From: Terebella lapidaria | Lineage: Eukaryota > Annelida > Polychaeta > Terebellida > Terebellidae | Reading direction: 5' to 3' | DNA: 64,000 bases | Assembly: GCA_949152475.1 (NCBI GenBank) | Contig: OX424566.1 | Span: forward strand, 11,183,177 to 11,247,176 | Shown here: positions 6,963 to 62,593 of the stretch, piece by piece | Layout: each line of letters opens with the position of its first letter | Position numbering within the stretch: the stretch's first letter is position 1 | Position numbers and translations under genes: made by a program | The notes under the pieces: generated by a model | Database searches by the model: none | What the model was told of the DNA's origin: nothing | Seen by the model: only the letters and a program-made list of their open reading frames with translations

Positions 6963-8955
6963 ACTAGACGTCAAGGCCTAGAGATGCCTTGGGGCATTTG
7001 GACTGAAATCAGGGCAAGGCAAAAGTTCATCCATAATATCCCTTAGACATGTTTGTCTAGAGTGAAGAGTCCGAAAATAACTCTACGACACACTGTTTTC
7101 TTGATAACGAAGTAAACAAAAAATGACGACTCGGCAAAAAAATTTGGTGCCAAGGTCGAAGTTCATCCATAATACCCTGTAGACATCTTTGTCTAGTGCG
7201 ACGAGTCCGAAAATAACGTCCGTTTCGCTCTACGATGCACCGTTTCCGAGATATACATTGGGCCTCACGGATGACTCACCAAAACCTCTTTTGACCTCTG
7301 GGTCAAAGGTCATTAGACTGAATGACCCCATAATCAATAGGGTTCCGGAAACCATTTGACAGAAAATTCACCCTCAGTTCCTCACAGACTAATCGGACGA
7401 TGGAGCCGGCTCCAAAACGATTGGGTTCATCTACAAAATATGACTGATAACTGGTGAAAATTTCTCAGAGATACGTCCAGGCGTTCTTGAGTTACATGTA
7501 TCATCTGGAAACCTAAACATAGCACCAAGGGTGCTGTAGCTTACCGGCAATCATGAGAAACGCAGAGTATTGATTTTCCAACATATAAATTGTTACACTG
7601 ATCTTGAACTCTAATTGTCCAAACATGTTCGTAAATGTTGCAGGAAACACATTTTCTGTATGGAATATAATACAAAATCATATTACACATCACAAAGGTA
7701 CATAAAGAGAATCTTATACATGATTTTGGGAAAAACTGTATGAATAGATTTAGACAAAATGGCCACCAAAGACAAACTCATCGTTTTTGACCTTTCAAGG
7801 TCATTGAAGGTCAAATTTGAGGTCATCACTCAAACCGCAATATTTGATTTCCCATTTGAATGTGCCAATACTTAGGCTCTATTTTGAAGTCTTCTATGAG
7901 TTTACTCTGCACAGCTCCCATTATGAAGGGAAAATTGGGTGAAATTTTCTAAGTCCAAAAAATTTTTCAATGGCCAAAAAAAAAAATTTGTTTTTTTTTT
8001 TTGCTGGAAATGGCTCAAAACGAATAGTGACTCGATTTGAGACGAAAAAATTTTTTTTCGCCGACCCATCAAAAAATCAAAATGGCCGCCACACGCAAAC
8101 CGGCAATTCAAGGGGAACGAATCTTATACACATCATAGAGGTACATGAGGGGAATGTGTTTTGAAACAAAAATCTCAAAATTGATCAGACAGTTTTTGAG
8201 AAAATGGCCATCAAAGTCCAAAATTGGTCATTTCTCGACAAAAAAAGGTCGTTTTGACCTTCCAATGTCATTGAAGGTCAATTTTAAGGTCATCACTCAA
8301 ACCGCAATATATGATTTCCCATTTGAATGTGCCAATACTTAGGCTCTATCTTCAAGTGTTGTATGAGTTTACTCCGCAGAGCTCCCATTATGAAGGAAAA
8401 TTTGGGTGAAATTTTCTAAGTCCCAAAAATTTTTCAATGGGCAAAAAAAAAAATTTTTTTTTTTTTGCTGGAAATGGCTCAAAACGAATAGTGACTTGAT
8501 TTGGGACAAACAAATTTTTTTCGCAGACCCGTCAAAAAATCAAAATGGCTGCACTCGCAAACCGGCGATTCAAGGGCAACGAAACTTATACACTTCATAA
8601 AGGTACATGAGAGGAATTTTTTGAAACAAAAATCTCAAAACTGATCAGACAGTTTTTGAGAAAATGGCCACCAAAGTCCAAAATTGGCAAATTTTCGTCA
8701 AAAATGGCCGCCAAATAGGCAAAAACGATTCAATCAAAAAAATTTAAAAAACGTCTTTAGATACTGGCCCAAGGTATGTTCTGACGAATTTATGGGGAAA
8801 TTCATCATGTCAAAAAAAAGTTACAGACCCGGACGGACGACGGACGCCGGACGAACGACGGACGAAAAACCACGACAATAGCTTATCGGCCCAAAGGGCC
8901 GGTAAGCTAAAAATGGAAAACGAACTCTGACCAAATCATAAGGGCATTCGTGCCA
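6963..8955 (+). mobile_element. R-family hairpin-ended element (R2), interrupted by a P element
   Basis: The left end ACTAGACGTCAAGGCC followed by GATGCCTTGGGGCATTTGG matches the left end of R1 at 10277. The body (TCTAGTGCGACGAG, CGTTTCGCTCTACGATGC, CAATAGGGTTCCGG, GGCGTTCTTGAGTTA) parallels R1, but with only one or two repeat units. The match stops at 7520, where a P element begins, and resumes at 8910 as far as the R right-end motif CATAAGGGCATTCG near 8937. The right hairpin is degraded. R was therefore present first and P entered it later. No coding capacity. Confidence 0.75.
7521..8909 (+). mobile_element. P-family hairpin-ended element (P1)
   Basis: The left end is a hairpin, AGCACC-AAG-GGTGCT, followed by TAGCTTACCGGC. 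The right end is a long hairpin, AGCTTATCGGCCC-AAA-GGGCCGGTAAGCT, whose outer arm is the reverse complement of the left motif. Inside are two diverged modules of about 450-490 bases, each with a self-complementary A/T run beside TTTTCGC(C/A)GACCC, an AAAATGGC(C/T)GC word and TGACCTT words. A CGGACGGACGA-type microsatellite precedes the right hairpin. There is no coding capacity. A reverse copy (P2) lies at 26740-27615. Confidence 0.85.
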
Positions 8956-9149
8956 AACCAGTTGCCAGCACCAGTGCGTGCAGGTTTCATGCATGCGCAG
9001 TGTTGCAGACATCAATGGCGTTTGAAAAGATGAACAGAAAATACCACTCGGATCTATCAAACTTCCTAAAACTATAAATAATGCTGGACAGCTCTCAGTT
9101 TTAGTGTGGTATTGTTTTAGAGCATTAATTCCATCCCAAAAGAGGTGTC

Positions 9150-9365
9150 CATCGTACTGCGATGTTCTTCAATATCTTTTGAAACAATCTGCGTACTCAA
9201 ATTTCTTGGTCATATATTCTTTGCCATGCTCGGTAATGTGGCCGCATGTGTGTATCGCCCAGGAATGGCGAAATCAGAAGTTGTGGATTATCATGCTGTG
9301 ATCGAATAAATAAGCACATGACCAAGAAATCTGAGTACACAAGATATTGAAGAACATCGCAATAA
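9150..9365. repeat. Inverted repeat (stem-loop), arms about 55 bp
   Basis: The arm around 9154-9216 (GCGATGTTCTTCAATATCTT, then TTTCTTGGTCATA) is the reverse complement of 9313-9365 (ATGACCAAGAAAT, then AAGATATTGAAGAACATCGC). The loop is about 95 bases. Immediately right, ATAATGAAGGTGAAT occurs twice, around 9368 and 9408. Probably a decayed MITE; no clear target duplication is seen. Confidence 0.7.
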
Positions 9366-9459
9366 CAAATAATGAAGGTGAATCAAAGTCCCCACTGGTG
9401 TGTACGGATAATGAAGGTGAATGAAGTTCCCCATTACTGCATTGTCAGAATTTCTATAA

Positions 9460-9680
9460 TGGCCTGAATCAGATCAGGGTACACCTATCAGCTTCCCCAT
9501 CACCACCACTGAGAATCCTGTTGCAGCAACCGTAATCCTCACCCAGCACCAAGTTTAATGTCCTCTCCGGGCTGAAGGACAACGTATCAGGCGCGAAATT
9601 CGCCGGGGAGCGAGACCTGTGATCGAACCCGAGACCACTCGTTTGTGAGATGAGCGCTCTACCACTGAGCAATTGACACC
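9460..9680 (-). mobile_element. tRNA-derived SINE
   Basis: On the minus strand the 5' end carries an A box (TTGCTCAGTGGTAGAGCG) and a B box (GGGTTCGATC) at tRNA-like spacing. The head is not followed by a tRNA acceptor 3' half. Instead there is a SINE-like body with GATACGTTGTCCTTCAGCC and GAGGACATTAAACTTGGTGC, ending near 9460. The loss of tRNA pairing and the long tail argue against a functional tRNA gene. Confidence 0.75.
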
Positions 9681-9689
9681 CGATATGAA

Positions 9690-10276
9690 ATGATGCTATT
9701 TAGATGACAAATCGATGAGTGGGAAACCTGGGTATAGGATCAAACAAGACATCATGTGAACGTATTCAAAACCGTTCAGCCGCTCAGTTCAGTCAGAGAA
9801 ATTCCCGTATTATCGCTCAGGTGCAAACGGGTGAGAAGGCAATTTGTGTAATGTGTGGTGTATAACTGTCATATTATCACGCGATTCGTATCACCACATC
9901 ATACTCTTCACGTTAGACAATTTGTTGCTCATAAATTTGATCAAATATAAAGATAAACTGAATTCAACAACACACAAGTCTGTCAGATTGGAAAGAAATG
10001 GAATAATATTAAATACCGACCTTCTTTAAATACATTTTCATGGAACAATTTATGGATCGGCTCCTACAGTGCTCTGACATATTTTTGTTGGAACTGTATC
10101 AAGGATACATACAACCCATTTTAACCGGGTGCACCACCTGTAATAAATCTACACAGAACAACAACTACAACAATAAAATACCATCATGTATAGGGGCCTA
10201 GATCTACCAGCTCCCACCTCAGTGAGCTAGGCATAGCTGGAGAACCATGCATGCACCCACGTGGAAAAAAAAAGAA
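9690..10276. other. Intergenic, no gene seen
   Basis: AT-rich sequence without a recognisable exon or repeat family. An A-rich tract just before 10277 abuts the R1 element. Confidence 0.5.
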
Positions 10277-13232
10277 ACTAGACGTCAAGGCCTGAAGATG
10301 CCTTGGGGCATTTCGTGTGAGTTCTATTCCTAGCTAACATATACCTAAGAGACCGTGTCTAGAACCATGGTGACTCTGAAACTGTCCGTGGTCAAAGTTT
10401 AAGTGACATACCCCACCCTAAGGCATCTTTGCGTTTCGCTCTACGACGCACCGTTTCCGAGATACGGCAAACAGGAAGTGCTGAGTCGGTGAAAAAAAAT
10501 TCGACACCAGAAGTCGTCTCGACCCAAGATACCCTCTAGACTAGTTAGTCTAGTGCCAGGAGGCTGAAATTAAGCTCCGTTTCGCTGTACGACGCATCGT
10601 TTCCGACATACAACCAAACAGAAAGTGCTGAGTCGGTGAAAAAACAAATTTGACACCAGAAGACGTCTCAGCCCAAGATACTCCCTAGACTAGTTTGACT
10701 AGTGCCAGGAGGCCGAAATTGAGCTCCGTTTCGCTCTACGACGCACCGTTTCCGAGATACGGCCGAACAGGAAGTGCCGAGTCGGCAAAAAAAAATTCGA
10801 CACCAGGGGTCGTTTCGACCCAAGATACCCTCTAGACTAGTTAGTCTAGTGCCAGCAGGCCGAAATTGAGCTCCGTTTCGCTCTACGACGCACCGTTTCC
10901 GAGATACGGCCGAACAGGAAGTTCTGAGTCGGCGAAAAAAAATTGACACCAGGTGTCGTCTCGACCCAAAATACCCACTACACTAGTTTGTCTAGTGCCA
11001 GAAGGCCGGAATTGAGCTCCGTTTCGCTCTACGACGCACCGTTTCCGAGATACGGCCCAACAGGAAGTGCCGAGTCGGCGAAAATAAATTCGACACCAGG
11101 GGTCGTTTCGACCCAAGATACCCTCTAGACTAGTTAGTCTAGTGCCAGAAGGCCGAAATTGAGCACCGTTTCGCTCTACGACGCACCGTTTCCGAGATAC
11201 GGCCGAACAGGAAGTTCTGAGTCGGCGAAAAAAAAATTGACACCAGGTGTCGTCTCGACCCAAAATACCCACTAGACTAGTTTGTCTAGTGCCAGAAGGC
11301 CGGAATTGAGCTCCGTTTCGCTCTACGATGCACCGTTTCCGAGATACGGCCCAACAGGAAGTGCCGAGTCGGCGAAAATAAATTCGACACCAGGGGTCGT
11401 CACGACCCAAAATACCCCCTAGACTTGTTTGTCTAGTGCCAGAAGGCCGGAATTGAGCTCCGTTTCGCTCTACGACGCACCGTTTCCGAGATACGGCCAA
11501 ACAGGAAGTTCCGAGTCGGCGAAAAAAAAATTGACACCAGGTGTCGTCTCGACCCAAAATACCCACTAGACTAGTTTGTCTAGTGCCAGAAGGCCGGAAT
11601 TGAGCTCCGTTTCGCTCTACGACGCACCGTCTCCCGAGATACGGTTGAACAGGAAGTGCCGAGTCGGCGAAAATAAATTCGACACCAGGTGTCGTCTCGA
11701 CCCATAATACCCACTAGACTAGTTTGTCTAGTGCCAGAAGTCCGGAATTGAGCTCCGTTTCACTCTACAACGCACCGTTTCCGATATACGGTGGAAAAGG
11801 AATTGCCGAAAATAAATTCGACACCAGGGGTCGTCTCGACCCGAAATACCCCCTAGACTAGTTGTCTAGTGCCAGGAGGCCGAAATTGAGCTCCGTTTCG
11901 CTCTACGACGAACCGTTTCCGAGATACGGCCAAACAGGAAGTTCCGAGTCGGCGAAAAAAAAATTGACACCAGGTGTCGTCTCGACCCAAAATACCCACT
12001 AGACTAGTTTGTCTAGTGCCAGAAGGCCGGAATTGAGCTCCGTTTCGCTCTACGATGCACCGTCTCCGAGATACGGTCGAACAGGAAGTGCCGAGTCGGC
12101 GAAAAAAAAATTGACACCAGGTGTCGTCTCGACCCAAAATACCCACTAGACTAGTTTGTCTAGTGCCAGAAGGCCGGAATTGAGCTCCGTTTCGCTCTAC
12201 GATGCACCGTCTCCGAGATACGGTCGAACAGGAAGTGCCGAGTCGGCGAAAATAAATTCGACACCAGGGGTCATCTCGACCCATAATACCCACTAGACTA
12301 GTTTGTCTAGTGCCAGAAGTCCGAAATTGAGCTCCGTTTCGCTCTACGACGCACCGTTTCCGAGATACGGTCGAACAGGAAGTGCCGAGTCGGCGAAAAA
12401 ATACATTCGACACCAGGGGTCGTCTCGACCCAAAATACCCCCTAGAGTAGTTGTCTAGTGCCAGGAGGCCGAAATTGAGCTCCGTTTCGCACTACGACGC
12501 ACCGTTTCCGAGATACGGTCGAACAGGAAGTGCCGAGTCGGCGAAAAAATAAATTCGACACCAGGGGTCGTTTCGACCCAAAATACCCTCTAGACTAGTT
12601 GTCTAGTGCCAGGAGGCCGAAATTGAGCTCAGTTTCGCTCTACGACGCACCGTTTCCGAGATACGGCCGAACAGGAAGTGCCGACTCGGCAAAAATAAAT
12701 TCGACACCAGGGGTCGTCACGACCCAAGATACCCCCTAGACTTGTTTGTCTAGTGCCAGAAGGCCGAAATTGAGCTCCGTTTTGCTCTACGACGCACCGT
12801 TTCCGAGATATGCATGAAAGCCTCAAGGATGAATCAGCAAAAATTCTTCCGAGCTCTAGGTCAGAGGTCGTTCGACGGATTGATCCCAAAATCAATAGGG
12901 TTCTTCCCTGGTGGTATATGAACTCCCATGCATAGAATACTTGCCATTGCATGAATACTTTTTGAGTTATCGATCGGAAACCAAGTCTCAAAATAAACCT
13001 TGATTTCATCCTCACGGACCTCACGGACCCCGGAGCCGCCTCCAAAACAATAGGGGTCTTCCATGTAATATTTCTGACCAGTGGTGTAAATTTGGACAAG
13101 ATCCATTCAGGCGTTCCCGAGTTATTGATCGGAAACCAAAACGGCGGAAAGTAAAAAAAAAAGAAGAAAAAAAAAAAAAAAAAAAAAAAAACCAGACAAA
13201 GCCATAAGGGCATTTCGGGCCGAAATGCCCTA
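10277..13232 (+). mobile_element. R-family hairpin-ended element with large tandem array (R1)
   Basis: The left end is ACTAGACGT followed by CAAGGC-CTGAAGAT-GCCTTG, a hairpin, then GGGCATTTCG. The right end is AGGGCATTTCGG-G-CCGAAATGCCCT, a 12-bp stem built from the same motif (13207-13231). Between them lie a short 5' segment, a tandem array (10420-12800) and a 3' unique segment that matches R2 (CAATAGGGTTCTTCC, GGCGTTCCCGAGTTATTG). An A-rich tract at 13150-13190 precedes the hairpin. Tandem repeats between hairpin ends are typical of HINE/DINE-1/pearl-type non-autonomous elements. Confidence 0.8.
10420..12800. repeat. Tandem array, about 17 units of about 147 bp
   Basis: The word CGTTTCGCTCTACGACGC recurs with small changes about every 145-148 bases, starting near 10431, 10579, 10727, 10873, 11021, 11167, 11315, 11460, 11607, 11755, 11895, 12041, 12189, 12337, 12483, 12630 and 12777. 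Each unit also carries CCGAGTCGGCGAAAA, GACACCAGG(G/T)GTCGT and a small palindrome CTAGAC-TAGTTT-GTCTAG. The unit is close to 49 codons, which explains the long spurious open frames across it. Neighbouring units vary in a mosaic way. Confidence 0.92.
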
Positions 13233-13316
13233 ATAAGAGTTCGACTGGCTTGATATAGACGTATTTTGTCGGTTTATAATTTTCTGCACAATTGAATACC
13301 TATATGCCGGAAATGC

Positions 13317-14836
13317 TAATAATAATAATAATAATAATCTTTATTTTTATATAGCGCAGAAACAATGTCAGCCATTCTCGAAGCGCTGTACAAACATTAC
13401 ACAAGTACACATTATTACAAAGAGTACACAAGATTACAAAAGTATTGGACATTTAATGGTTAAAAGCTTGAATGAACAAATAGGTTTTCAGAGATGATTT
13501 AAAAGACGCTAGACTAGGACTAGTTTTAATGTCATGTGGGAGTTCATTCCAAAGACGGGGTCCAATGACACTGAACGCCCTGGCACCGTAGGCAGTGGTC
13601 CTGAAGCGCGGGACCTGGAGGTTGGTTTGGTTTGACCGGAGTGATATTCTGTGGCTGAGGCGGACGATGAACTCTACAAGGTACGACGGTGCCTCCCCGT
13701 GGAGACACTTGAACACTAGTGTCAGTACCTTGAATTCTGCTCGGTGCTTGAGTGGCAGCCAGTGCAGCTCGCGTAAAACTGGCGTGATGTGTTCGAAGAG
13801 CTTGGTGCGAGTGACTAGACGTGCCGCCGAGTTCTGGACCCACTGGAGTTTGTACAACAGCTTGGTAGGGAGAGCCACTAGAAGGCTGTTACAATAATCA
13901 AGTCTAGATGTGACAAGAGCGTTGACTACCAAACGTGTTGCTGCCTCGTCCAAGTGTCGCCTGATCTTGGCAATGCAGTAGAGCTGATATGACGCCGATC
14001 TGACGACTGCCTTGATCTGTTGGTCCATTGTGAGGGTGTGATCCAGCTGAACACCGAGGTTCCGGACAGAGGAGGAGGGGTCGATCGCACTCTCACCAAA
14101 GAGGACTCGAGGTGTGAGAATAGGTTGTGGTTTGAACCGGGTTGAGAAGTTGATCACTTCAGTTTTAGCGTCGTTAAGTTTGAGACGGTTGAGAGTCATC
14201 CAGAGTCTGATATCACGGATACAGGCTTGCACACGGCACAGCACAGCCGAGTAGCGCTCCGTTTCAACCGAGACGTAGATCTGGGAATCATCAGCGTAAA
14301 ACATATGGCACAGGTCATGAGATCTTATGATGTCGGCCAAGGGTGCCATATACATTGAGAACAACACCGGACCCAGCACGGATCCCTGAGGAACTCTGCA
14401 TGAGAGTTGCACTGGGGTCGACATTGCACCTCCTATGGACACGGCCTGAGTCCTTCCCGAGAGATATGATGTGAACCATTGCAGTGCATTACCTCTGATT
14501 CCGTAGCGAGATTTCAGACGTCTCAGGAGTATGGTGTGAGTATGTCTACCGTGTCGAATGCAGCCGTGATGTCCAGCATTATCAGAACAGTCACCCTACC
14601 CCCGTCGAGAGCGAGTAGGACGTCGTTGTAGACGCGAAGAAGGGCCGTTTCCGTGCTGTGGTGTCGGCGATATGCGCTCTGCCTTTCTTCGACAAGATTG
14701 CAGGCGCCAAGATGGGCAGTGAGTTGGCTGTTGACAATGCGCTCAAGCACCTTCGACACAAACTGAAGGTTTGAGACAGGCCGATAGTTCCGAAAGTTAT
14801 CGGCATCCAATCCCTGCTTCTTCGGGACAGGAGTGA
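13317..14836 (-). mobile_element. CR1-like LINE, 5'-truncated, reverse transcriptase and C-terminal part
   Basis: The minus strand encodes NFRNYRPVSNLQFVSKVLER near 14800, then LDITAAFDTVD, VPQGSVLGPVLF and the catalytic FYADDSQIYVSV. The C-terminal signature follows: LDYCNSLLVALP, ELHWLPLKHRAEFK, YGARAFSVIGPRLWNELP, FKSSLKTYLF. The stop is at 13453. The 3' tail (AGCGCTTCGAGAATGG, GCGCTATATAAAAATAAAG, then ATT repeats at 13317-13338) is typical of CR1 elements. The 5' end is cut near 14836, inside the RT domain. A 5-base insertion after VD near 14540 breaks the frame; the rest, 13453-14442, is one open frame of 329 codons. Recent but dead copy. Confidence 0.9.
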
Positions 14837-14839
14837 AAA

Positions 14840-15500: not shown

Positions 15501-15584
15501 ATGAGACACAGTACGGAGCTGTTACACGTTTATTAGCCAGAGTTCCTACTGTGTCCTATGACCGTGGCTGGTAGATTATATTTG

Positions 15585-16330: not shown

Positions 16331-16337
16331 TAGTTTA

Positions 16338-16840: not shown

Positions 16841-16950
16841 TACATAAATCAGAAAAATCAGAGTATACCCGCAGTCACAGAACACCTTGCAACCTCTACA
16901 AACTTCTGCTATGCTCTACATTGTGATAGTATTCTGGTTTTAGAAACTGT

Positions 16951-17105: not shown

Positions 17106-17109
17106 CACT

Positions 17110-17880: not shown

Positions 17881-17897
17881 AACTTCGTGTTGATATT

Positions 17898-23750: not shown

Positions 23751-23775
23751 TATTAATGTACCAGTGTTGGCTTAA

Positions 23776-26578: not shown

Positions 26579-26739
26579 TATTCGAGAACATATATATGGG
26601 AATCACTTTGATCTTGTAAGTTTTGAAAGAAAAATGTTGGCAACGAGAAACAAAGTATGAAAATTCCAGTCTACAGAAAAAATCCTCTCGAAAGAAATAT
26701 AAAGAAAACTTACATTTGCTGCAATGTCACTAACATTTT

Positions 26740-27615
26740 TAGCTTACCATGCTTACCGGCCCTTTGGGCCGATAAGCTATTGTCGTGGTTTTTCGTCCGT
26801 CGTCCGTCCGGGTCTGTAACTTTTTTTTGACATTATGAATTTCCCCATAAATTTGTCAGAACATATCTTGGGCCAGTATCTAAAGACAATTTTTCAATTT
26901 TTTTGATTGAATCCTTCAATCGTTTTTGCCTATTTGGCGGCCATTTTTGACAAAAATTTGCCAATTTTGGACTTTGGTGGCCATTTCCAGTTTTGAGATT
27001 TTTGTTTTAAAACATTCCACTCATGTACCTCTATGATATGTATAAGTTTCGTTGCCCTTGACTCGCCGGTCTGCGTGTGGCGGCCATTTTGATTTTTTGA
27101 TGGGTCGGTGAAAAAAAAATTTTTGGCCTCAAATCAAGTCACTATTCGTTTTGAGCCATTACCAGCAAAAAAAATTTGAAAATTTTTTGGGACTTAGGAA
27201 ATGTCACCCAATTTTTCCTCCATAATGGGAGCTAGGCAGAGTAAACTCCTAGAAGACTTCAAAAGTATTGGCACATTCAAATGGGAAATCATATATTGTG
27301 GTTTGAGTGATGACCTTGAATTTGACCTTCAATGACCTTGGAAAGTCAAAAACGATGAATTCTGTCTTTGGTGGCCATTTTGTCTGAATCTATTCAGGCA
27401 GTTTTTCTCAAAATCATGTATAAGATTCTCTTCATGTACCTTTGTGATGTGTAATTTGATTTCATATTATAGTCCATACAGAAAATGTGTTTCCAGCAAC
27501 AATTACGAACATGTTTTGACAATAGAGTTTAAGATCAGTGTAACAATTTATATGTTGGAAAATCAATACTCTGCATTTCTCATGATTGCCGGTAAGCTAC
27601 AGCACCCTTGGTGCT
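26740..27615 (-). mobile_element. P-family hairpin-ended element (P2), reverse orientation
   Basis: On the plus strand the element starts with GCTTACCGGCCC-TTT-GGGCCGATAAGC (26753-26781) and a GTCCGTCGTCCGTCC tract. It ends with GCCGGTAAGCTA and the hairpin AGCACC-CTT-GGTGCT (27601-27615). It holds one module instead of the two in P1. TAGCTTACC appears once more just outside the long hairpin (26740), perhaps a partial duplication of the end. Confidence 0.85.
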
Positions 27616-28050
27616 ATGTTTATCAGTTGTGTTACTTTCAGTGTTGGAATGGAAAATTGAGAAGCTTTGTCTACAAACAGCCATGTGCCGGTACATTTTC
27701 TATGTACTCTTTCATTTGTTGAGTGATTTAATGTTTTATAAAGCTATGAAAAAACAGATCCAACACAATTTTCAATAACTTCTTGCACACAAGTAATGAA
27801 CATTACTGAATTTGCTTAAATACTAATATATACTGCAGAATTTACAGTAAATATATAGAGAATTCTTGAACATGTTGAGTGTAAACATGACAGCACAGAA
27901 GCCCTCTCAATGCATACAAGTATCTTGTTTTCATATTTCTGAAGAATACAGTGCATATAAACACATGTACATGTATAAATAAGTTGGAAATAGTTCTACC
28001 AACACAGTAAATTCTTACAGATTTAATATATTACAATACTAAAGTACAAG
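27616..28050. other. Region downstream of ZF-C, no gene seen
   Basis: AT-rich sequence between the P2 element and the ZF-C polyadenylation signal. No exon or repeat is supported. Confidence 0.5.
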
Positions 28051-36100: not shown

Positions 36101-36622
36101 GTTCAAAGTTTTAGCTTGATTGTTAAGGTTCATTCAAAATTTTGGGAGCGTAACAGTGTAACTAAGTAAGTCTGAGGGTAGATCCCCCTTCTTCTAAAAC
36201 ATACCCTTAAGGTCTGGTCTATCTGCGTCTTCGACTTTGAGAACGGCTCGACTTGCTTTTCGGGCTTTTGGGCCAAGGCAGAGCATGTTGGGGACCAACA
36301 TTGTAAAGGGGTAATGTGGCGATTTTGCCCAAAGATTAAAACAGGCGTTTTGGCAACTTTCGTACACCGTATTCAGGCCGCTTCAAATTTGAAGCTCGCG
36401 TCACCATAGTGACGTTTGTTATTTATCACCCAGTTTCACTGTTTCAAGTATGATGATGTTTTCCCTCTCGTGCGCTGGCAGTATAAATACTGCCAATGAC
36501 TGAAAATCTGGGAGTTTGGTCTTCCTGACTGCCAGAGAGCATGTCGGTGAGCGCTACTAGCTGCTCCCGTTCCCTATCAGGGTAGGGAGGAACATACTCC
36601 TGGGGTCAACCAAAAAACTACA
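33150..36622 (+). mobile_element. Ty3/gypsy LTR retrotransposon fossil, pol remnants and one LTR
   Basis: Plus-strand remnants follow Ty3/gypsy order: reverse transcriptase about 33180-33640 (FCVDYRKLNDV, LPFGLCNAPTKF, VYIDNVVVYG), RNase H about 33920-34200 (VAYVSIALSRSQINYS), integrase-like pieces about 34400-34980 (STGVTPYAILYGWK), a 3' region without known domains, then a probable LTR. No gag and no 5' LTR are seen, so the left part is missing. The element is broken by many changes and encodes nothing intact. With one LTR it cannot be dated from LTR divergence; the state of decay suggests it is old. Confidence 0.85.
36315..36622 (+). repeat. Probable 3' LTR of the gypsy fossil
   Basis: A purine-rich AAAGGGGTAA (36305-36314) precedes TGTGGCGATTTTGCC, a plausible LTR start. 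A TATA-like GTATAAATA lies near 36480. The sequence ends near CTACA at 36622. Ends are approximate because there is no second LTR to compare. Confidence 0.55.
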
Positions 36623-36716
36623 GTAAAACACCACATGATATGGGTTGAAGTATATTACATTTATTTACAGTAAAACACCAAATGATATGGGTCGAAGTAT
36701 ATTACATTTATTTACA
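36619..36716. repeat. 47-bp tandem duplication beside the LTR
   Basis: ACAGTAAAACACCACATGAT... is repeated once with two or three differences, about 36621-36667 and 36668-36714. It lies at the right border of the gypsy fossil and may have formed at or after insertion. Confidence 0.8.
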
Positions 36717-37864: not shown

Positions 37865-48493
<10,629 letters not shown>

Positions 48494-49898: not shown

Positions 49899-49899
49899 T

Positions 49900-50230: not shown

Positions 50231-50234
50231 ATTC

Positions 50235-50900: not shown

Positions 50901-51256
50901 GGCCTTATATAGTAGGATGCTTGATCTTTTTTCTCGGCCCAACCCTACACTTGGACATTGAGTGTATATCGATTCCTCCGGTAACATTTCCTAACACTTG
51001 GAATGATTTTTTACGCAGGTCCAGGATATAATTAAGCTCTCATTCTCTGGTATATATGTACAATTTATTCTGGCATAATATTCTGATATACTAGAAAATG
51101 TAAAGAAGTTTTTTTTTGTGTTCTATTCTTCGCACATTTATACACTCGTACGTGTAGGCCCGTGTAGGCCCCAGTATAAATTTGATTTTAGCGAGGACTG
51201 AATTCTATGTGAATGGAAAGCTAGTCAACTCAGTACGAGACAGCTACTATAAAAAA
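50900..51256. other. Intergenic, no gene seen
   Basis: AT-rich sequence leading to the left end of the Q1 element. No exon is supported. Confidence 0.5.
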
Positions 51257-52782
51257 TTAGCCCAAAGGCTAAGATAGGTTACCGGACAATTTTGGTTTGG
51301 CCATGGCAGCATTGGCATGTAACAGACCTTGAGATTTACCAATCAAGGTTCGCAGTGTAAACATATGACCTTGGGATTTACCAATCAAGGTCATCCGTAT
51401 GAACTTCGATGTAACCATTACATGTATGTGTGCGGCATTTGATATTCTATATGTTGGGTGGAATCGTTTAGGCCGCTCAGGTCAATTTACACATTCCAAG
51501 TCAGGCATTTGGCACTCAAGGTCATCTGACGTCAAGTTCAAGGTCATCATTAGTTGTGCCATATATGTCTTCCTATATGTTCATAATGCAAACAGGAGCT
51601 CTATCTGCAAGCATTTCATCTACAAAGGCAAATCTGGGCATTTTTTGACCCCAAAATGGCTGTTTTGACCTTTCAAGGTCATCCAAGGTCAAATTCAAGG
51701 TCACCACACAAGTCGCCATATATGACTTCCGATTTGAAAGTGCCAATTTCTAAGCTCTATCTTCAAGCGTTCTATGAGTACAGTCCTGACAGCTCCAATT
51801 ATGAAGGAAAAAAGTGCCGAAAATTTTCTAAGTCCAAAATTTTTTTCAAAGGGTGAAAATTTTTTTTTGCCTAGAAATGGCCCAAAATGGATAGTAATGT
51901 TATTTGGGGCGAAAAAATTTTTTTCGCCGACTCGTCAAAAATTCAAAATGGCCGCCACACTGAGATCGGCGATTCAAGGGCAACAAAACTTATACACGTC
52001 GCAGAGGTATATAAGAGGAATCTTTTTAAGCAAAAATCTCAAAACTGATCAGAGAGTTTTTGAGAAAATACAGACCAGGTGCAAATTTAAGCGTTTTTCG
52101 ACCCAAAAATGGCTGTTTTGACCTTTCAAGGTCATCCAAGGTCAAATTCAAGGTCACCACACAAGTCGCCATATATGACTTCCCATTTGAAAGTGCCAAT
52201 TTCTAAGCTCTATCTTCAAGCGTTCTATGAGTACAGTCCGGACAGCTCCCATTATGAAGGGAAAAAGTGCCGAAAATTTTCTAAGTCCAAAATTTTTTTC
52301 AAAGGGTGAAAATTTTTTTTTGCTCTAGAAATGGCCCAAAATGGATAGTAATGCGATCTGGGGCGAAAAATTTTTTTTTCGCCGACCCGCCAAAAATTCA
52401 AAATGGCCGCCACACGAAAACCGGCAGATTTAGGGCAACCAAACTTATACATATCACAGAGGTATATGAGGGGAATCTTTTGAAACCAAAAACTCAAAAC
52501 TGATCAGACAGTTTTTGAGAAAATGGCCGTCAAAGTCCAAAATTGAGCGTTTTTCGACAAAAACAGCCGCCATTTTGAAAAAAATGCGAAAATCAAAAAA
52601 CAAAAAAATACCTCCTTCTCAAAATATTTTTAGGCATTTTTGTGCAAAATTTCAGAAAGATTCGATCGTTAACTTTAAAGATAAAAATGTTAACGACGGA
52701 CGGACGGACGGACGGACGGACGGACGGACGACGGACGCAACGCCATGCCAATAGGTTATCGGACCAAAGGTCCGGTAACCTA
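51257..52782 (+). mobile_element. Q-family hairpin-ended element (Q1), complete
   Basis: The left end is the hairpin TTAGCC-CAAA-GGCTAA followed by GATAGGTTACCGGAC. The right end is the long hairpin TAGGTTATCGGACC-AAA-GGTCCGGTAACCTA (52752-52782), whose outer arm is the reverse complement of the left motif. The body has a left-specific part (51290-51650), two related modules of about 450 bases, then AAAGTTAACG(A/T) words and an ACGG microsatellite (about 52696-52735) before the hairpin. Each module has AAAATGGC(C/G)GCC, a GCGAAAAAATTTTTTTCGCC-type palindrome and TGACCTTGA words. No coding capacity. Confidence 0.9.
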
Positions 52783-52783
52783 A

Positions 52784-53271
52784 AAAGGCATGATTGTCCA
52801 TCGTGTATGTACAGACTCGATTTTGAACTCAAACTCCCGCAAAGGCGCAAAGGTGAAGGTCATCCGAGTTGCACGCTGGTTTTGTTTTCCACCGAAACTG
52901 TAAATTGTCGTCAGCTTGGCTGAAACATCGGTAACATATTTGAAACGAATCATTTATCATTTAATGAAACTCTCTTCCAAGTTTTATGTTCCTAGAATGC
53001 ACCCATCGGACCCATGTCACTCCTGATGTCGAAAGCAAACCGCTGTCACCGGAGCATGATCGGGGGGGGGGGGGGGGAGGGGTGTACCCGGGGTACAGGT
53101 GATAAGGCCGCCCAAGTGTTCAGGCCGCCATTGAAAAATATCAAACTACAGGTTAAGTGATGGATGACGAGTGTTATGACACTCGAACATACTGGTATGA
53201 TAATATGCGGCCTGATCGCTTTGGCGGCCTTATCGCTTGGTAATCGTGTACCCGAATTGTGCATGCTAGCC
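52784..53271. other. Intergenic with a G-rich tract
   Basis: No gene is seen. A run of G at about 53061-53077 is the only marked feature, followed by short words GGCCGC/GCGGCC around 53107-53230. Confidence 0.45.
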
Positions 53272-53734
53272 CAGTTGGGGAAAGGGCAAATTTGGAGACT
53301 GTTGTAAAATCTACCAGCAGTACCCAAATTGGGGAACCAGGGGTTGGTAAATTTGAGTACGTGGCATTGGACCAATATCCAAAAAAATGTTATGACTAAA
53401 TTATATCATTATCAATGGACATCTAATGAAGTTGACAAAATGAAGTCTTCTGCAAGTGTATATTGTCTGCAAGATTATAGATTATCTCATTTGAAGTAGC
53501 AAATAAATTTCTGAGCTTCAGCGTCCAACTCTGTACCAAAAACCTGAGACGTTCCTGTCATTATTAGGTGTTGGACCAGTATATTTAGTTGAAAGGGGAA
53601 CAGTAATGCACCAAACACCGATTACTCCAGAAAAAAGATAAGTTTATTTGAGTACCCGAATTCACCAACCCCACAGTTGTCGAATTTGAGTACTCTCCCC
53701 CAAGAGTTGTCAAATTTGCCCCTTTCCCCAACTG
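53272..53734. mobile_element. hAT-type MITE with perfect 8-bp target duplication
   Basis: The inverted ends start CAGTTGGGGAAAGGGCAAAT and match at the right (ATTTGCCCCTTTCCCCAACTG). TGCTAGCC lies immediately outside both ends (53264-53271 and 53735-53742), a perfect 8-bp duplication as made by hAT transposases. Inner words (GAGTAC, AATTTG) are also inverted. 463 bp, non-coding. Confidence 0.88.
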
Positions 53735-54314
53735 TGCTAGCCCCATCATCATGCATATGTTGAGCGGTATAACTCTTTGGCACGCTGATTGTTGTCATCA
53801 TCGAGAGACCAATGAGCGAGAAAAACGCACAACGTTCACACTTTTGTTTTTTAGGTTACCGGACCTTTGGTCCGATAACCTATTGGCATGGCGTTGCGTC
53901 CGTCCGTCCGTCCGTCTAGCCGGGCAAACGGAACGGAGTTATGGGGATTTCTTAGGGGGAATAAAGCTGAAAACGCCCCACAACCACAGTTTAAGCCGAA
54001 AGTGCGGTCTTATGGGGATTTTTTCAGGACTTATGGGGAAAGTTAAGATAGGAAATTTAACATTGGGTCCGCCCGTAACGCCCATACCGTTCACTCCGTC
54101 CGTCCGTCCGTCCGTCCGGCGTTAACATTTTAGGTTACCGGACCTTTGGTCCGATAACCTATTGGCATGGCGTTGCGTCCGTCGTCCGTCCGTCCGTCCG
54201 TCCGGGCAAACGGAACGGAGTTTTGGGGATTTCTTAGGGGGAATAAAGCTGAAAACGCCCCACAACCACAGTCAACCACAGTTTAAGCCAAAAGTGCGGT
54301 CTTATGGGGATTTT

Positions 54315-56148
54315 TAGGTTACCGGACCTATAGTCCGATAACCTATTGGCATGGCGTTGCGTCCGTCGTCCGTCGTCCGTCCGTCCGTCCGTCCGTCCGT
54401 CGTCCGTCCGTTCACATTTTTATCTTTAAAGTATATGGTCCGATCTTTCTGAAATTTTGCACAAAAATACCTAAAAATATTTCCAGGAAAGGTTTTTTTT
54501 AGTTTTCTGATTTCTGCATTTTTTTCAAAATGGCGGCCGTTTTCGTCGAAAAATGGCCAATTTTGGACTTTGACGGTTGTTTTCTCAAAATCTGTTCAGT
54601 AACTTTTTTTCTTATTGATGCACAACACTCCCCATATGTACCCCTGTGACATGTATAAATTTCGTTGCCCTTGAATCGCTCGAAGTGGGCCATTTTGGGC
54701 CCAAATTCGGCCCAAATGGGACTTTCTCATGTTAAATTCTCCTATGCTTTATAATGGGACACAATAAGCCTGATATCTCACTTAATATTGCGATTAGAGA
54801 CTAGGAATCAATTGTGGACATATAGGAAATGATATATGCTGAATATTCTCGTGACCTTGAATTTGACCTGTGACCTCAGTTTCAAGGTCAGAGAACAAAA
54901 TGGCTAATATCTCGCTTATTATCGACTTTACAGCTCAGGAATCAATTGTGGACATATAGGAAATGATATCAGCCGAATATTCTGATGACCTTGAATTTGA
55001 CCTTTGACCTCATTTCAAGGTCACACGGCAAAATGGCTAATATTTCGCTTCTTATCGACTTTACAGCTTAGGAATCAATTAACAACATATAGGAATTGAT
55101 ATATGCAGATTATTGTCATGACCTTGAATTTGACCTTTGACCTCATTTTCAAGGTCACAGGACAAAATGGCTAATATCTCACTTATTATCGATTTTACAG
55201 CTTAGGGATCATTTGTGGACATGTAGGAAATGATATATGCTGAATATTCTTGTGACTGAGAATTTGACCTCTGACCTTTGTTTCAAGGTCCGAGAACAAA
55301 ATGGCTAATATCTCGCTTATTATCGACTTTACAGCTTAGGAATCAATTGTGGACATATAGGGAATGATATCAACCGAATATTCTGATGACTTTGAATTTG
55401 ACCTTTGACCTCATTTTCAAGGTCAAAGGACAATATGGCTAATATCTCGCTTGTTTCTGGCTTTACAGCTTAGGAATCAATTATGGACATATAGGAAATG
55501 ATATCAACCGAATATTCTGATGACCTTGAATTTGACCTTTGACCTCATTTTCAAGGTCAAAAGACAAAATGGCTAATATCTCGCTTATTATCTACTTTAC
55601 AGCTTAGGAATCAATTGTGGACATATAGGAAATGATATCAACCGAATATTCTGATGACCTTGAATTTGACCTTTGACCTCATTTTCAAGGTCACATGGCA
55701 AAATAGCTAGTATCTCGCTTGTTATCGACTTTACAGCTTAGGAATCAATTGTTAACATATAGGAAATGATATATGCAGATTATTGTCATGACCTTGAATT
55801 TGATCTTTGACCTCTTTTTCAATTTCACAGGACAAAATGGGTAATATATCACTTGTTATCAATTTTACAGCTTAGGGATCACTTGTGGATATGTAGGAAA
55901 TGATATATGCTGAATATTCTCGTGACTTTGAATTTGACCTCTGACCTCATTTTCATGGTCAAGAACACAAAATGGCTAAAGTCTCACTTATTATCGACTT
56001 TACAGCTTAGGAATCAGTTGTGGACATATAGGAAATGATGAAAGCCTAATATTCTGATGACCTTGAATTTGACCTTTGATCTCATTTTCAAGGTCACAGG
56101 AATATAAAACATATTTTGTCCGGTAACCTGTCTTAGCCCTTGGGCTAA
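54315..56148 (-). mobile_element. Q2, innermost Q element carrying a 134-bp tandem array
   Basis: The head is at 54315 (with ACCTATAGT in place of ACCTTTGGT in the loop region) and the tail ends at 56148 (TTAGCCCTTGGGCTAA). The body keeps only part of the usual modules (54410-54720) and is otherwise filled by the 134-bp array. It interrupts Q3 at a T run. Confidence 0.8.
54745..56105. repeat. Tandem array, about 10 units of 134 bp, nuclear-receptor half-sites
   Basis: TGACCTTGAATTTGACCTTT and close variants recur near 54850, 54985, 55120, 55254, 55388, 55521, 55655, 55790, 55923 and 56057. Each unit also holds AAAATGGCTAATATCTCGCT, TTTACAGCTTAGGAATCA and GACATATAGGAAATGATAT. Most units contain TGACCTTTGACCT, the reverse complement of AGGTCAAAGGTCA. 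Confidence 0.92.
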
Positions 56149-58055
56149 TTTTTTCAGGACTTATGGGGAAAGTTAAGATAGGAAATTTAACATTGGGTCC
56201 GCCCGTAACGCCCATCCGTTCACCCGTCCGTCCGTCCGTCCGTCCGGCGTTAACATTTTTATCTTTAAAGTTAACAATCGAATCTTTCTGAAATTTTGCA
56301 CAAAAATGCCTAAAAATATTTTGAGAAGGAGGTATTTTTTTGTTTTTTGATTTTCGAATTTTTTTCAAAATGGCGGCCGTTTTTGTCGAAAAACGCTCAA
56401 TTTTGGACTTTGACGGCCATTTTCTCAAAAACTGTCTGATCAGTTTTGAGTTTTTGGTTTCAAAAGATTCCCCTCATATACCTCTGTGATATGTATAAGT
56501 TTGGTTGCCCTAAATCTGCCGGTTTCCGTGTGGCGGCCATTTTGAATTTTTGGCGGGTCGGCAAAAAAATTTTTTTTCGCCCCAAATCGCATTACTATCC
56601 ATTTTGGGCCATTTCTAGGGCTAAAAAAATTTTTCACCCTTTGAAAAAATTTTTGGACTTAGAAAATTTTCGGCACTTTTTCCCTTCATAATGGGAGCTG
56701 TCCGGACTGTACTCATAGAACGCTTGAAGATAGAGCTTAGAAATTGGCACTTTCAAATGGGAAGTCATATATGGCGACTTGTGTGGTGACCTTGAATTTG
56801 ACCTTGGATGACCTTGAAAGGTCAAAACAGCCATTTTTGGGTCGAAAAATGCCCAAATTTACACCTGGTCTGTATTTTCTCGGAAACTGTCTGATCAGTT
56901 TTGAGATTTTTGTTTAAAAAGATTCCTCTTATATACCTCTGTGACCTGTATAAGTTTTGTTGCCCTTGTATCGCCGATCTCCGTGTGGCGGCCATTTTGA
57001 ATTTTTGACGAGTAGGCGAAAAAAAAATTTTTCGCCCCAAATCGCATTACTATCCATTTTGGGCCATTTCTAGACAAAAAAATTTTTTCACCCTTTGAAA
57101 AAAATTTTGGACTTGGAAAATTTTCGGCACTTTTTTCCTACATAATGGGATCTGTCAGGACTGTACTCATAAAACACTTGAAGATAGAGCTTAGAAATTG
57201 GCACTTTCAAATGGGAAGTCATATATGGCGACTTGTGTGGTGACCTTGAATTTGACCTTCAATGACCTTGAAAGGTCAAAACAGCCATTTTGGGGTCAAA
57301 AAATGCCCAGATTTGCCTCTATAGATGAAATGCTTGCAGATAGAGCTCATGTTTGCATTATGAACATATAGGAATACATATATGGCACAACTAATGATGA
57401 CCTTGAACTTGACGTCAGATGACCTTGAGTGTCAAATGTCTGACTTGGAATGTGTAAATTGACCTGAGCGGCCTAAACGATTCCACCCAACATATAGAAT
57501 ATCAAATGCCGCACACATATTTGTAATGGTAACATCGAAGTTCATACGGATGACCTTGATTGGTAAATCCCAAGGTCATATGTTTACACTGTGAACCTTG
57601 ATTGGTAAAAGGTCTGTTACCTGCCAATGCTGCCATGGCCAAACCAAAATTGTCCGGTAACCTATCTTAGCCTTTGGGCTAATTTTTTATCTTTAAGTTA
57701 ACGATCGAATCTTTCTGAAATTTTGCACAAAAATGCCTAAAGATATTTTGAGAAGGAGGTATTTTTTTGTTTTTTGATTTTCGCATTTTTTTTAAAATGG
57801 CGGCCGTTTTTGTCGACAAACGCTGAATTTTGGACTTTGACGGCCATTTTCTCAAAAACTGTCTGATCAGTTTTGAGTTTTTGGTTTCAAAAGATTCCCC
57901 TCATATACCTCTGTGATATGTATAAGTTTGGTTGCCCTAAATCTGCCGGTTTTCGTGTGGCGGCCATTTTGAATTTTTGGTGGGTCGGCGAAAAAAATTT
58001 TTTTCGCCCCAGATCGAATTACTATCCATTTTGGGCCATTTCTAGGCAAAAAAAA

Positions 58056-60193
58056 ATTTTCACCCTTTGAAAAAAATTTTGGACTTAGAAAATTTTCGGC
58101 ACTTTTTTCCTTCATAATGGGAGCTGTCAGGACTGTACTCATAGAACGCTTGAAGATAGAGCTTAGAAATTGGCACTTTCAAATGAGAAGTCATATATGC
58201 CGACTTGTGTGGTGACCTTGAATTTGACCTTCGATGACCTTGAAAGGTCAAAACAGCCATTTTGGGGTAAAAAAATGCCCAGATTTGCCTCTGTAGATGA
58301 AAGGCTTGCAGATAGAGCTCGTGTTTGCATTATGAACATATAGGAAGACATATATGGCACAACTAATGATGACCTTGAACTTGACGTCAGATGACCTTGA
58401 GTGCCAAATGTCTGACTGGGAATGTGTAAATTGACCTAGGCGGCCTAAACGATTCCACCCAACATATAGAATATCAAATGCCGCACACATACATGTAATG
58501 GTTACATCGAAGTTCATACGGATAACCTTGATTGGTAAATCCCAAGGTCATATGTTTACACTGCGAACCTTGATTGGTAAATCTCAAGGTCTGTTACCTG
58601 CCAATGCTGCCATGGCCAAACCAAAATTGTCCGGTAACCTATCTGAGCCTTTGGGCTAATTTTTATCTTTAAAGTTAACGATCGAATCTTTCTGAAATTT
58701 TGCACAAAAATGCCTAAAAATATTTTGAGAAGGAGGTATTTTTTTGTTTTTTGATTTTCGCATTTTTTTAAAATGGCGGCCGTTTTTGTCGACAAACGCT
58801 GAATTTTGGACTTTGACGGCCATTTTCTCAAAAACTGTCTGATCAGTTTTGAGTTTTTGGTTTCAAAAGATTCCCCTCATATACCTCTGTGATATGTATA
58901 AGTTTGGTTGCCCTAAATCTGCCGGTTTTCGTGTGGCGGCCATTTTGAATTTTTGGCGGGTCGGCGAAAAAAAATTTTTTCGCCCCAGATCGAATTACTA
59001 TCCATTTTGGGCCATTTCTAGAGCAAAAAAAAATTTTCACCCTTTGAAAAAAATTTTGGACTTGGAAAATTTTCGGCACTTTTTCCCTTCATAATGGGAG
59101 CTGTCCGGACTGTACTCATAGAACGCTTGAAGATAGAGCTTAGAAATTGGCACTTTCAAATGGGAAGTCATATATGGCGACTTGTGTGGTGACCTTGAAT
59201 TTGACCTTGGATGACCTTGAAAGGTCAAAACAGCCATTTTTGGGTCGAAAAACGCTCAAATTTGCACCTGGTCTGTATTTTCTCAAAAACTGTCTGATCA
59301 GTTTTGAGATTTTTGCTTAAAAAGATTCCTCTCATATACCTCTGTGACGTGTATAAGTTTTGTTGCCCTTGAATCGCCGATCTCAGTGTGGCGGCCATTT
59401 TGAATTTTTGACGAGTCGGCGAAAAAAAATTTTTTCGCCCCAAATAACATTACTATCCATTTTGGGCCATTTCTAGGCAAAAAAATTTTTTCACCCTTTG
59501 AAAAAAATTTTGGACTTAGAAAATTTTCGGCACTTTTTTCCTTCATAATGGGAGCTGTCAGGACTGTACTCATAGAACGCTTGAAGATAGAGCTTAGAAA
59601 TTGGCACTTTCAAATGAGAAGTCATATATGCCGACTTGTGTGGTGACCTTGAATTTGACCTTCGATGACCTTGAAAGGTCAAAACAGCCATTTTGGGGTA
59701 AAAAAATGCCCAGATTTGCCTCTGTAGATGAAAGGCTTGCAGATAGAGCTCGTGTTTGCATTATGAACATATAGGAAGACATATATGGCACAACTAATGA
59801 TGACCTTGAACTTGACGTCAGATGACCTTGAGTGCCAAATGTCTGACTGGGAATGTGTAAATTGACCTAGGCGGCCTAAACGATTCCACCCAACATATAG
59901 AATATCAAATGCCGCACACATACATGTAATGGTTACATCGAAGTTCATACGGATAACCTTGATTGGTAAATCCCAAGGTCATATGTTTACACTGCGAACC
60001 TTGATTGGTAAATCTCAAGGTCTGTTACCTGCCAATGCTGCCATGGCCAAACCAAAATTGTCCGGTAACCTATCTGAGCCTTTGGGCTAATTTTTATCTT
60101 TAAAGTTAACGATCGAATCTTTCTGAAATTTTGCACAAAAATGCCTAAAAATATTTTGAGAAGGAGGTATTTTTTTGTTTTTTGATTTTCGCA
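58056..60193. repeat. Direct duplication at 1431-bp offset inside the Q nest
   Basis: 58056-58762 and 59487-60193 look identical by eye, including the Q tail with the rare variant CTGAGCCTTTGGGCTAA. Flanking DNA at both ends is related but not identical, so this fits unequal crossing-over between Q modules. A haplotype or assembly artefact is the alternative. Confidence 0.8.
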
Positions 60194-60197
60194 TTTT

Positions 60198-61720
60198 TAG
60201 GTTACCGGACCTTTGGTCCGATAACCTATTAGCATGGCGTTGCGTCCGTCGTCCGTCCGTCCGTCCGTCCGTCCGTCCGGCGTTAACATTTTTATCTTTA
60301 AAGTTAACGATCGAATCTTTCTGAAATTTTGCACAAAAATGCCTAAAAATATTTTGAGAAGGAGGTATTTTTTTGTTTTTTGATTTTCGCATTTTTTTTA
60401 AAATGGCGGCCGTTTTTGTCGAAAAACGCTCAATTTTGGACTTTGACGGCCATTTTCTCAAAAACTGTCTGATCAGTTTTGAGTTTTTGGTTTCAAAAGA
60501 TTCCCCTCATATACCTCTGTGATATGTATAAGTTTGGTTGCCCTAAATCTGCCGGTTTCTGTGTGGCGGCCATTTTGAATTTTTGGCGGGTCGGCGAAAA
60601 AAATTTTTTTCGCCCCAAATCACATTACTATCCATTTTGGGCCATTTCTAGGGCAAAAAAATTTTTTCACCCTTTGAGCAAAATTTTGGACTTAGAAAAT
60701 TTTCGGCACTTTTTCCCTTCATAATGGGAGCTGTCCGGACTGTACTCATAGAACGCTTGAAGATAGAGCTTAGAAATTGGCACTTTCAAATGGGAAGTCA
60801 TATATGGCGACTTGTGTGGTGACCTTGAATTTGACCTTGGATGACCTTGAAAGGTCAAAACAGCCATTTTTGGGTCGAGAAACGCTCAAATTTGCACCTG
60901 GTCTGTATTTTCTCAAAAACTGTCTGATCAGTTTTGAGATTTTTGCTTAAAAAGATTCCTCTTATATACCTCTGTGACGTGTATAAGTTTTGTTGCCCTT
61001 GAATCGCCGATCTCAGTGTGGCGGCCATTTTGAATTTTTGACGAGTCGGCGAAAAAAAATTTGTTCGCCCCAAATAACATTACTATCCATTTTGGGCCAT
61101 TTCTAGGCAAAAAAAAATGTTCACCCTTTGAAAAAAATTTTGGACTTAGAAAATTTTCGGCACTTTTTTCCTTCATAATGGGAGCTGTCCGGACTGTACT
61201 CATAGAACGCTTGAAGATAGAGCTTAGAAATTGGCACTTTCAAATGGGAAGTCATATATGGCGACTTGTGTGGTGACCTTGAATTTGACCGTCGATGACC
61301 TTGAAAGGTCAAAACAGCCATTTTGGGGTCAAAAAATGCCCAGATTTGCCTTTGTAGATGAAATGCTTGCAGATAGAGCTCATGTTTGCATTATGAACAT
61401 ATAGGAAGACATATATGGCACAACTAATGATGACCTTGAACTTGACGTCAGATGACCTTGAGTGCCAAATGTCTGACTTGGAATGTGTAAATTGACCTGA
61501 GCGGCCTAAACGATTCCACCCAACATATAGAATATCAAATGCCGCACACATACATGTAATGGTTACATCGAGGTTCATACGGATGACCTTGATTGGTAAA
61601 TCCCAAGGTCATATGTTTACACTGCGAACCTTGATTGGTAAATCTCAAGGTCTGTTACCTGCCAATGCTGCCATGGCCAAACCAAAATTGTCCGGTAACC
61701 TATCTTAGCCTTTGGGCTAA
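60198..61720 (-). mobile_element. Q5, complete Q element inserted in another Q copy
   Basis: The left flank is GATTTTCGCATTTTT and the right flank is TTTTTTTAAAATGGCGG. The same host sequence without an insertion, GATTTTCGCA-T8-AAAATGG, is present at about 60380-60408 and 57777-57800. The filled site has 5+7 T against 8 in the empty one, so insertion was into a T run with a gain of about four T. Confidence 0.88.
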
Positions 61721-62593
61721 TTTTTTTAAAATGGCGGCCGTTTTTGTCGACAAACGCTGAATTTTGGACTTTGACGGCCATTTTCTCAAAAACTGTCTGA
61801 TCAGTTTTGAGTTTTTGGTTTCAAAAGATTCCCCTCATATACCTCTGTGATATGTATAAGTTTGGTTGCCCTAAATCTGCCGGTTTTCGTGTGGCGGCCA
61901 TTTTGAATTTTTGGCGGGTCGGCGAAAAAAAATTTTTTCGCCCCAGATCGAATTACTATCCATTTTGGGCCATTTCTAGGCAAAAAAAAATGTTCACCCT
62001 TTGAAAAAAATTTTGGACTTAGAAAATTTTCGGCACTTTTTTCCTTCATAATGGGAGCTGTCCGGACTGTACTCATAGAACGCTTGAAGATAGAGCTTAG
62101 AAATTGGCACTTTCAAATGGGAAGTCATATATGGCGACTTGTGTGGTGACCTTGAATTTGACCTTGGATGACCTTGAAAGGTCAAAACAGCCATTTTGGG
62201 GTCAAAAAATGCCCAGATTTGCCTTTGTAGATGAAATGCTTGCAGATAGAGCTCCTGTTTGCATTATGAACATATAGGAAGACATATATGGCACAACTAA
62301 TGATGACCTTGAACTTGACGTCAGATGACCTTGAGTGCCAAATGTCTGACTTGGAATGTGTAAATTGACCTGAGCGGCCTAAACGATTCCACCCAACATA
62401 TAGAATATCAAATGCCGCACACATACATGTAATGGTTACATCGAAGTTCATACGGATGACCTTGATTGGTAAATCCCAAGGTCATATGTTTACACTGCGA
62501 ACCTTGATTGGTAAATCTCAAGGTCTGTTACCTGCCAATGCTGCCATGGCCAAACCAAAATTGTCCGGTAACCTATCTTAGCCTTTGGGCTAA

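Follow-up and report, generated by a model that had tools for sequence, protein, structure and literature searches.

The window analysed here is a stretch of 64,000 nt from the polychaete Terebella lapidaria (assembly GCA_949152475.1, contig OX424566.1, positions 11,183,177 to 11,247,176), and the host genome searched with its repeats comprised 761.6 Mb in 438 contigs. The window holds two copies of a repeat family R (one of them split by a copy of family P), two copies of P, and an array of copies of family Q, some of which are nested and some of which lack a left end. We conclude, with a probability of about 0.9, that P, Q and R, together with S and T from the same genome, are non-autonomous Helentron elements (HINEs) with Helitron2-type ends, which move by rolling-circle transposition using proteins supplied by resident Helentrons that encode Rep, Pif1 and an endonuclease. 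The copies read from the window are as follows, in window coordinates.

6963–7505, minus strand: right part of R copy 1, with the short hairpin end CAAGGC..GCCTTG, GGGCATTT and body sequence, interrupted by P copy 1
7515–8913, minus strand: P copy 1, complete, within the R copy
7515–7548, minus strand: right end of P copy 1, with the 3′ terminal repeat GCCGGTAAGCTA and the short hairpin AGCACC/GGTGCT
8879–8909, minus strand: long hairpin (left end) of P copy 1, with the C.A / T.G position kept and a CGTC-type microsatellite inward
~8935–8965: possible remnant of the long-hairpin end of R copy 1, beyond P copy 1
10273–13235, minus strand: R copy 2, complete, with 147-bp tandem repeats at 10432–12810
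10286–10315, minus strand: right end of R copy 2, with the 3′ terminal repeat CGAAATGCCC and the short hairpin CAAGGC/GCCTTG
13207–13231, minus strand: long hairpin (left end) of R copy 2, fully paired
26738–27621, plus strand: P copy 2, with the terminal repeat partly duplicated in the left hairpin
51251–52786, minus strand: Q copy, complete, with long hairpin at 52752–52782, ACGG microsatellite at 52695–52737, ~454-bp repeats, and right end at 51251–51287
53852–53916, plus strand: Q left end (hairpin and microsatellite) of a truncated copy
54131–54204, plus strand: left end of a truncated Q, with the T-run of a different Q copy before it
54315–56155, plus strand: Q variant, with 134-bp repeats at 54802–56101 and right end at 56118–56155
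56156–62597, plus strand: array of Q copies, of which several lack a left end; right ends lie at ~57652, 58629, 60060, 61690 and 62563
60198–61724, plus strand: complete Q copy nested in another Q at a T-run; the right boundary is uncertain within the T-run
60198–60228, plus strand: long hairpin (left end) of the nested Q copy

P, Q, R and T share one plan. At the left end, a terminal repeat pairs with its inverted copy further downstream to give a long hairpin; next comes a microsatellite (CGTC/ACGG, in P, Q and S) or a poly-A/T tract (in R). Central tandem repeats follow (147 bp in R; ~454 or 134 bp in Q), and the right end has the terminal repeat once more, inverted, and then a short hairpin, which the autonomous lineage described below also has. 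The terminal repeat matches this subterminal inverted copy at 13 bases in Q, 12 in P, 10 in R and 8–10 in T. An earlier note on this DNA had reported three short and three long hairpins with their terminal motifs, and these are present where it placed them, far above chance: allowing one mismatch, the terminal motif is matched 5 times for P (0.09 expected from shuffles) and 17 times for Q (0.02 expected), and the R motif is matched exactly 3 times (0.11 expected). Seven long-hairpin strands fold better than their shuffles (z of −3.7 to −6.4), with 0 or 1 of 200 shuffles folding as well. The same note treated P, Q and R as three families. The shared plan is borne out, their independence is not: the bodies of P and Q are 76% identical over 1,150 bp, so that the two are sister families and their long stems are homologous.

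At its start (26738–26779), P copy 2 has the partly duplicated terminal repeat TAGCTTACC AT GCTTACCGG, possibly the product of an imprecise end event.

Family T (L066:34-1345; L057:4607, 7212 and 7911) has the terminal repeat TGTATCCCCC, a GTC-rich microsatellite, repeats of ~132 bp and a right hairpin CGGTCG/CGACCG.

Ends and insertion sites agree with the Helentron type. In the P/Q clan the left end, TAGG or TAGC, is preceded by TT at 24 of 26 sites, by TTT at 23 and by TTTT at 20. A right end lies within reach at 10 of these 26 left-end sites (three share one right end, and one is L065, a decayed copy). The five distinct Q right ends (window 51251, 56118 and 61690, and two on contig C1) all read TCCGGTAACC, terminating in ...AATTTT, and both distinct P right ends read CCGGTAAGC, terminating in ...TATGTTT. 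With these termini and two hairpins, P and Q do not fit the canonical Helitron (Helitron1), which has 5′-TC and CTRR-3′ ends and a single hairpin. The nested Q copy at 60198–61724 provides one clean empty site. When its flanks are joined, the resulting 159 bp match five uninterrupted Q copies of the window at 95–97% and a sixth at 83%; the sole gap relative to those five is of 4–5 bases, at the junction within the T-run, and there is no target duplication outside the T-run. The outcome against which the earlier note had set its reading, ordinary terminal inverted repeats flanked by target duplications, is thus not borne out at the one nested Q site tested.

Downstream of the Q right ends at 57652, 58629 and 60060 the same internal Q sequence comes next (a T-run, then ATCTTTAA). 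This points to several insertions at a single site, or to a junction that was duplicated afterwards.

Proteins that could serve such elements are encoded in the same genome. We scored 150 of 234 first-look candidates for the Rep domain (PF14214); all 150 were above the cut-off, many in frames of 2,200–2,600 codons, and in the plus-strand copies L027, L032, L033 and L034 the Rep domain is 100% identical. The two proteins tested, A and B, both contain Helitron_like_N, DUF6570 and PIF1 domains, and both carry the Rep motif RGSPHxH, whose S form is the Helentron version (PMC4067079). The endonuclease is above the Pfam cut-off in protein A and just short of it in protein B (24.2 against 24.5 bits). 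Protein A (L054:4391-10000) has an OTU-like cysteine protease domain besides DUF6570.

Lineage B (C14:35154006-35172005, with a frame of 2,514 codons) is the one that connects to Q. Three of its copies are alike up to ...CTCCGGTAACCTTTCTAGCCCTTGGGCTAATTTT and divergent beyond, which places a right end that is identical to three Q right ends at 31, 32 and 31 of 34 bases, with one gap. The 11 bp TCCGGTAACCT are common to both, so that lineage B and Q would fall in one family under the rule of Thomas et al., which asks for an identical 11-bp subterminal inverted repeat (subTIR) (PMC4067079). With the last 110 bases of lineage B as query, 40 of 379 candidates were scored, and 33 of these (the other seven were shorter matches) were compared with 30 of the 150 Rep rows: 24 of the 33 right ends lie within 25 kb downstream of a Rep match on the same strand, 22 of them within 10 kb. 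The non-autonomous copy L065 combines a lineage-B right end with a decayed Q-like left hairpin. For the element with Rep, helicase and matching ends that the earlier note had proposed to look for, we therefore have a right end near-identical to that of Q; a matching left end was not found, nor was any such element for P or R. Rep group A (L054 and L055) had no P/Q-type ends in 20 kb by motif scan, and none of its 29 inverted 11-mer pairs gave matching ends. T was considered as the 5′ end of lineage B and rejected, since T ends in a right terminus of its own and the copies are still alike in sequence further upstream than T. T elements upstream of autonomous frames (L058:75-3501) seem to have been amplified together with the lineage.

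The genome search with family ends that the earlier note proposed returned them in large numbers. The pattern TANNTTANCGGNNCNNNGNNCCGNTAANNTA, which leaves the loop and five stem pairs free, finds the P/Q-type long hairpin at 13,616 places; the long hairpin of R is found at 805 places and that of T at 2,647, and the controls (reversed, for the P/Q pattern) gave 0 in each case. Stem types were read at 81 places among the matches listed for TANNTTANCGGNNCNNNGNNCCGNTAANNTA (100 rows, all on contig C1). Sixty-eight are Q stems (pair 4 G-C, pair 12 A-T), eight are P stems (both pairs C-G), and three belong to S, a third type of the P/Q clan, intermediate between P and Q (pair 4 C-G, pair 12 A-T); pair 4 is broken in the remaining two. 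Pairs 3 and 12 are intact in all 81; pair 4 is intact in 79 and pair 13 in 78. Pair 8 never is: on the element strand it reads C.A in 80 and C.C in one. Stems with G or T at pair 12 do not form a family (one place in the genome pattern search, 18 in its control).

The earlier note had stated that base pairs in the long stems of P and Q changed together around a single mismatch in the same place, and this holds. Pair 4 is G-C in Q and C-G in P, pair 12 is A-T in Q and C-G in P, and one position is unpaired in both; among the 13 pairable positions these two differ in both arms, and no other differs at all. If positions changed independently at 24%, 5.2 uncompensated pairs would be expected between P and Q, and two double changes with nothing else would have p of ~8e-5. 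Across 12 distinct rows, two pairs show changes in both arms, where shuffles give 0.5 (12 of 500 reach that number), and the covariation score is equalled in 3 of 500 shuffles, controls that ignore relatedness. Over the 81 listed sites, what stands of the proposed covariation of stem columns is that pairs 4 and 12 each occur in two paired forms. The covariation of P and Q stems is real, yet the events are few: two pairs, in one clan.

The unpaired position lies six pairs from a three-base loop and is kept in P, Q, S and T. In P and Q it is T.G on one strand and C.A on the other. Pattern searches of the genome found 23 fully paired P/Q/S stems, compared with a total of 13,616 places. T has a stem sequence unlike that of P/Q/S; there the position is C.C at 48 of 50 listed places, and fully paired at 0 of 50. 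In P, Q and T it is the terminus-side arm that matches the right-end repeat, and the unpaired base sits in the opposite arm. The predicted energetic cost of the mismatch in Q is 4.8 kcal/mol for the element strand, compared with 3.4 kcal/mol for its complement; in all of P, Q, S and T it is the element strand that is predicted to fold less stably.

These features fit a sequence of events in which Rep would nick one end and a single strand would be displaced. As suggested by Bao and Jurka, the round might end when the repeat copy at the right end pairs with that at the left end and opens the left hairpin. Since the mismatch lies in the arm that takes part only in the hairpin, pairing between the two repeats (12–13 matched bases in P and Q) would be favoured over the hairpin, and the kept mismatch would bias the switch; alternatively, it may mark the strand for Rep. 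Any change of the terminal repeat would then have to be made at three places at once, and this would account for the covariation. We offer as a speculative idea, to which we give rather low odds, that the left hairpin is such an imperfect switch: the mismatch in the hairpin-only arm would make it weaker than the pairing of the repeats, and the element strand weaker than its complement, so that the right end can open the left hairpin and bring rolling-circle transfer to an end, or Rep reads the right strand, with the position kept while flanking pairs coevolve in three places.

Other explanations bear on different parts of this. The whole elements might be miniature inverted-repeat transposable elements (MITEs), with terminal inverted repeats for a cut-and-paste DDE transposase and the hairpins as side effects of inverted repeats. 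The same motif does stand inverted at both ends, and DINE-1 (PMC2374699) and pearl (PMC7492417) were formerly filed as MITEs; but the repeat at the right end is subterminal with a short hairpin after it, a right end close to that of Q lies downstream of Rep matches, and target-site duplications flanking the inverted repeats, by which MITEs are recognized, are absent from the one clean empty site. We consider this explanation very improbable. For the stems alone, template switching at imperfect palindromes is a known mutational process, and such quasipalindrome correction during replication, rather than selection on a folded strand, would change both arms together. The same process should remove the mismatch as well, but just 23 of ~13,600 stems are fully paired, and the copy of the repeat at the right end, 0.8–1.8 kb off, carries the letters of its family (in five Q and two P right ends), so that we judge it unlikely as the source of the paired changes. 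For the kept mismatch, simple inheritance from a founder, with no function, has even odds. At the ~24% divergence of P and Q, two positions would stay unchanged by chance in more than half of cases, and the 23 fully paired stems fit a background of ~0.8% change per free position (five changes at pairs 3, 4, 12 and 13 in the 81 listed sites). The case of T speaks for more than inheritance, in that a different stem also has a single mismatch, placed at exactly the same distance of six pairs from a three-base loop and likewise in the arm not matching the repeat.

Several observations weigh against the Helentron reading or its parts. The covariation comes down to two stem pairs, in families that are akin, where founder effects could explain both it and the kept mismatch, and departures in single copies mostly break pairs, as in copies decaying after insertion. 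The long stem of R has no mismatch. Energies of the short hairpins are weak, with 4, 17, 20, 24, 112 and 10 of 200 shuffles folding as well as the six stretches. The second nested case, P in R, has weak alignment evidence: the joined flanks of P copy 1 align to R 13010–13124 at 71% over 115 bp and, weakly, to R 13195–13224 at 80% over 30 bp (E of 0.46). T is preceded by TTG rather than a plain T-run in five of six copies, and a T element lies upstream of the lineage B frame in seven copies. The 5′ end of lineage B was not found: the main copy is interrupted by Ns at this point, and two exact-pattern searches for a hairpin made from the lineage's own right-end repeat gave 0 matches. For P, R and T no autonomous element turned up as a partner. 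We still favour HINEs copied by Helentron proteins. Where the earlier note spoke of a folded single strand, rolling-circle transposition and descent from Helentrons, the Helentron type stands on the ends, the empty site and the Rep lineage, and covariation adds to it to the extent of two pairs in one clan.

Two side observations concern the window itself. TCAAGGTCA occurs 55 times, against 0.8 expected, and 50 of these are within 51385–62465 (Q bodies and 134-bp repeats). We take it to resemble the extended half-site of nuclear receptors of the NR5A/ERR type; given its abundance in Q bodies, Q may spread such sites. At 36619–36716 there is a 47-bp tandem repeat of 2.1 copies.

The plan shared by these families, which had looked new to the author of the earlier note, is already in print, and P, Q, R, S and T are further families of that kind. 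Helitron2, as described by Bao and Jurka in 2013 (PMC3627910), has asymmetric terminal inverted repeats of 8–15 bp, of which the 5′ one forms a hairpin with downstream bases and the 3′ one stands just upstream of a second hairpin; one family inserts after TTTT without duplication. The same work notes compensatory changes in two related elements and suggests that the 5′ hairpin is opened, and the end point fixed, when the two repeats pair. P, Q and R have the same end plan in a different species. A conserved mismatch is not mentioned in the passages on Helitron2 ends in that paper, and the words mismatch, imperfect, compensatory and covari- are absent from the main text of PMC4067079; these are openly licensed texts without their supplements, and the feature may be in print elsewhere. 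Among the Helitron and Helentron hairpin literature listed, judged by titles and the opening lines of abstracts, compensatory change in such ends was seen only in the passages of PMC3627910, and six terminal motifs, sought as letters in the literature, led to 14 papers, none with a title on Helentrons.

The Cg_HINE elements of Crassostrea gigas (PMC7492417) have the same order of parts as P, Q and R: subTIR, complementary inverted repeat, microsatellite (GTCC-type in several), satellite-like tandem repeats, subTIR and palindrome. The likeness concerns that order of parts. In the account given there, no autonomous element was related to the oyster HINEs, whereas here one Rep lineage shares the right end of Q, which for annotation ties a high-copy family to a Rep-encoding lineage. 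Thomas et al. in 2014 (PMC4067079) tied HINEs to Helentrons and described DINE-1/HINE elements in a mite, Culex and Drosophila. Our elements are like theirs in the Rep/Pif1/endonuclease protein with the S-form Rep motif, the palindromic subTIR, the 3′ palindrome, the T-rich target without modification and the excess of HINEs over Helentrons; they differ in that the autonomous partner is established here by its right end only. Some Helitron2-type elements of Fusarium also have hairpins at both termini (PMC5148889), and in Helraiser the 3′ hairpin works as a terminator (PMC4778049).

The way in which elements of the Helentron type finish a round of copying is, in the passages of PMC3627910, only a suggestion. 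The more than 17,000 hairpin ends of this genome, in several stem types and beside many long open Rep frames, amount to a natural mutagenesis of that end. Should the mismatch prove to matter, pairing between the repeats at termination could be tested directly. The kept mismatch is the least expected feature and could be tested as a working part. A precedent comes from bacterial REP hairpins, in which a conserved stem mismatch is needed by the HUH enzyme TnpA-REP, and restored pairing eliminated or severely reduced activity (PMC8266576). The REP sequences are bacterial and their mismatch is a two-base bulge, so that the comparison with P, Q, S and T is an analogy only; like R here, some REPs are perfect palindromes (PMC8266576).

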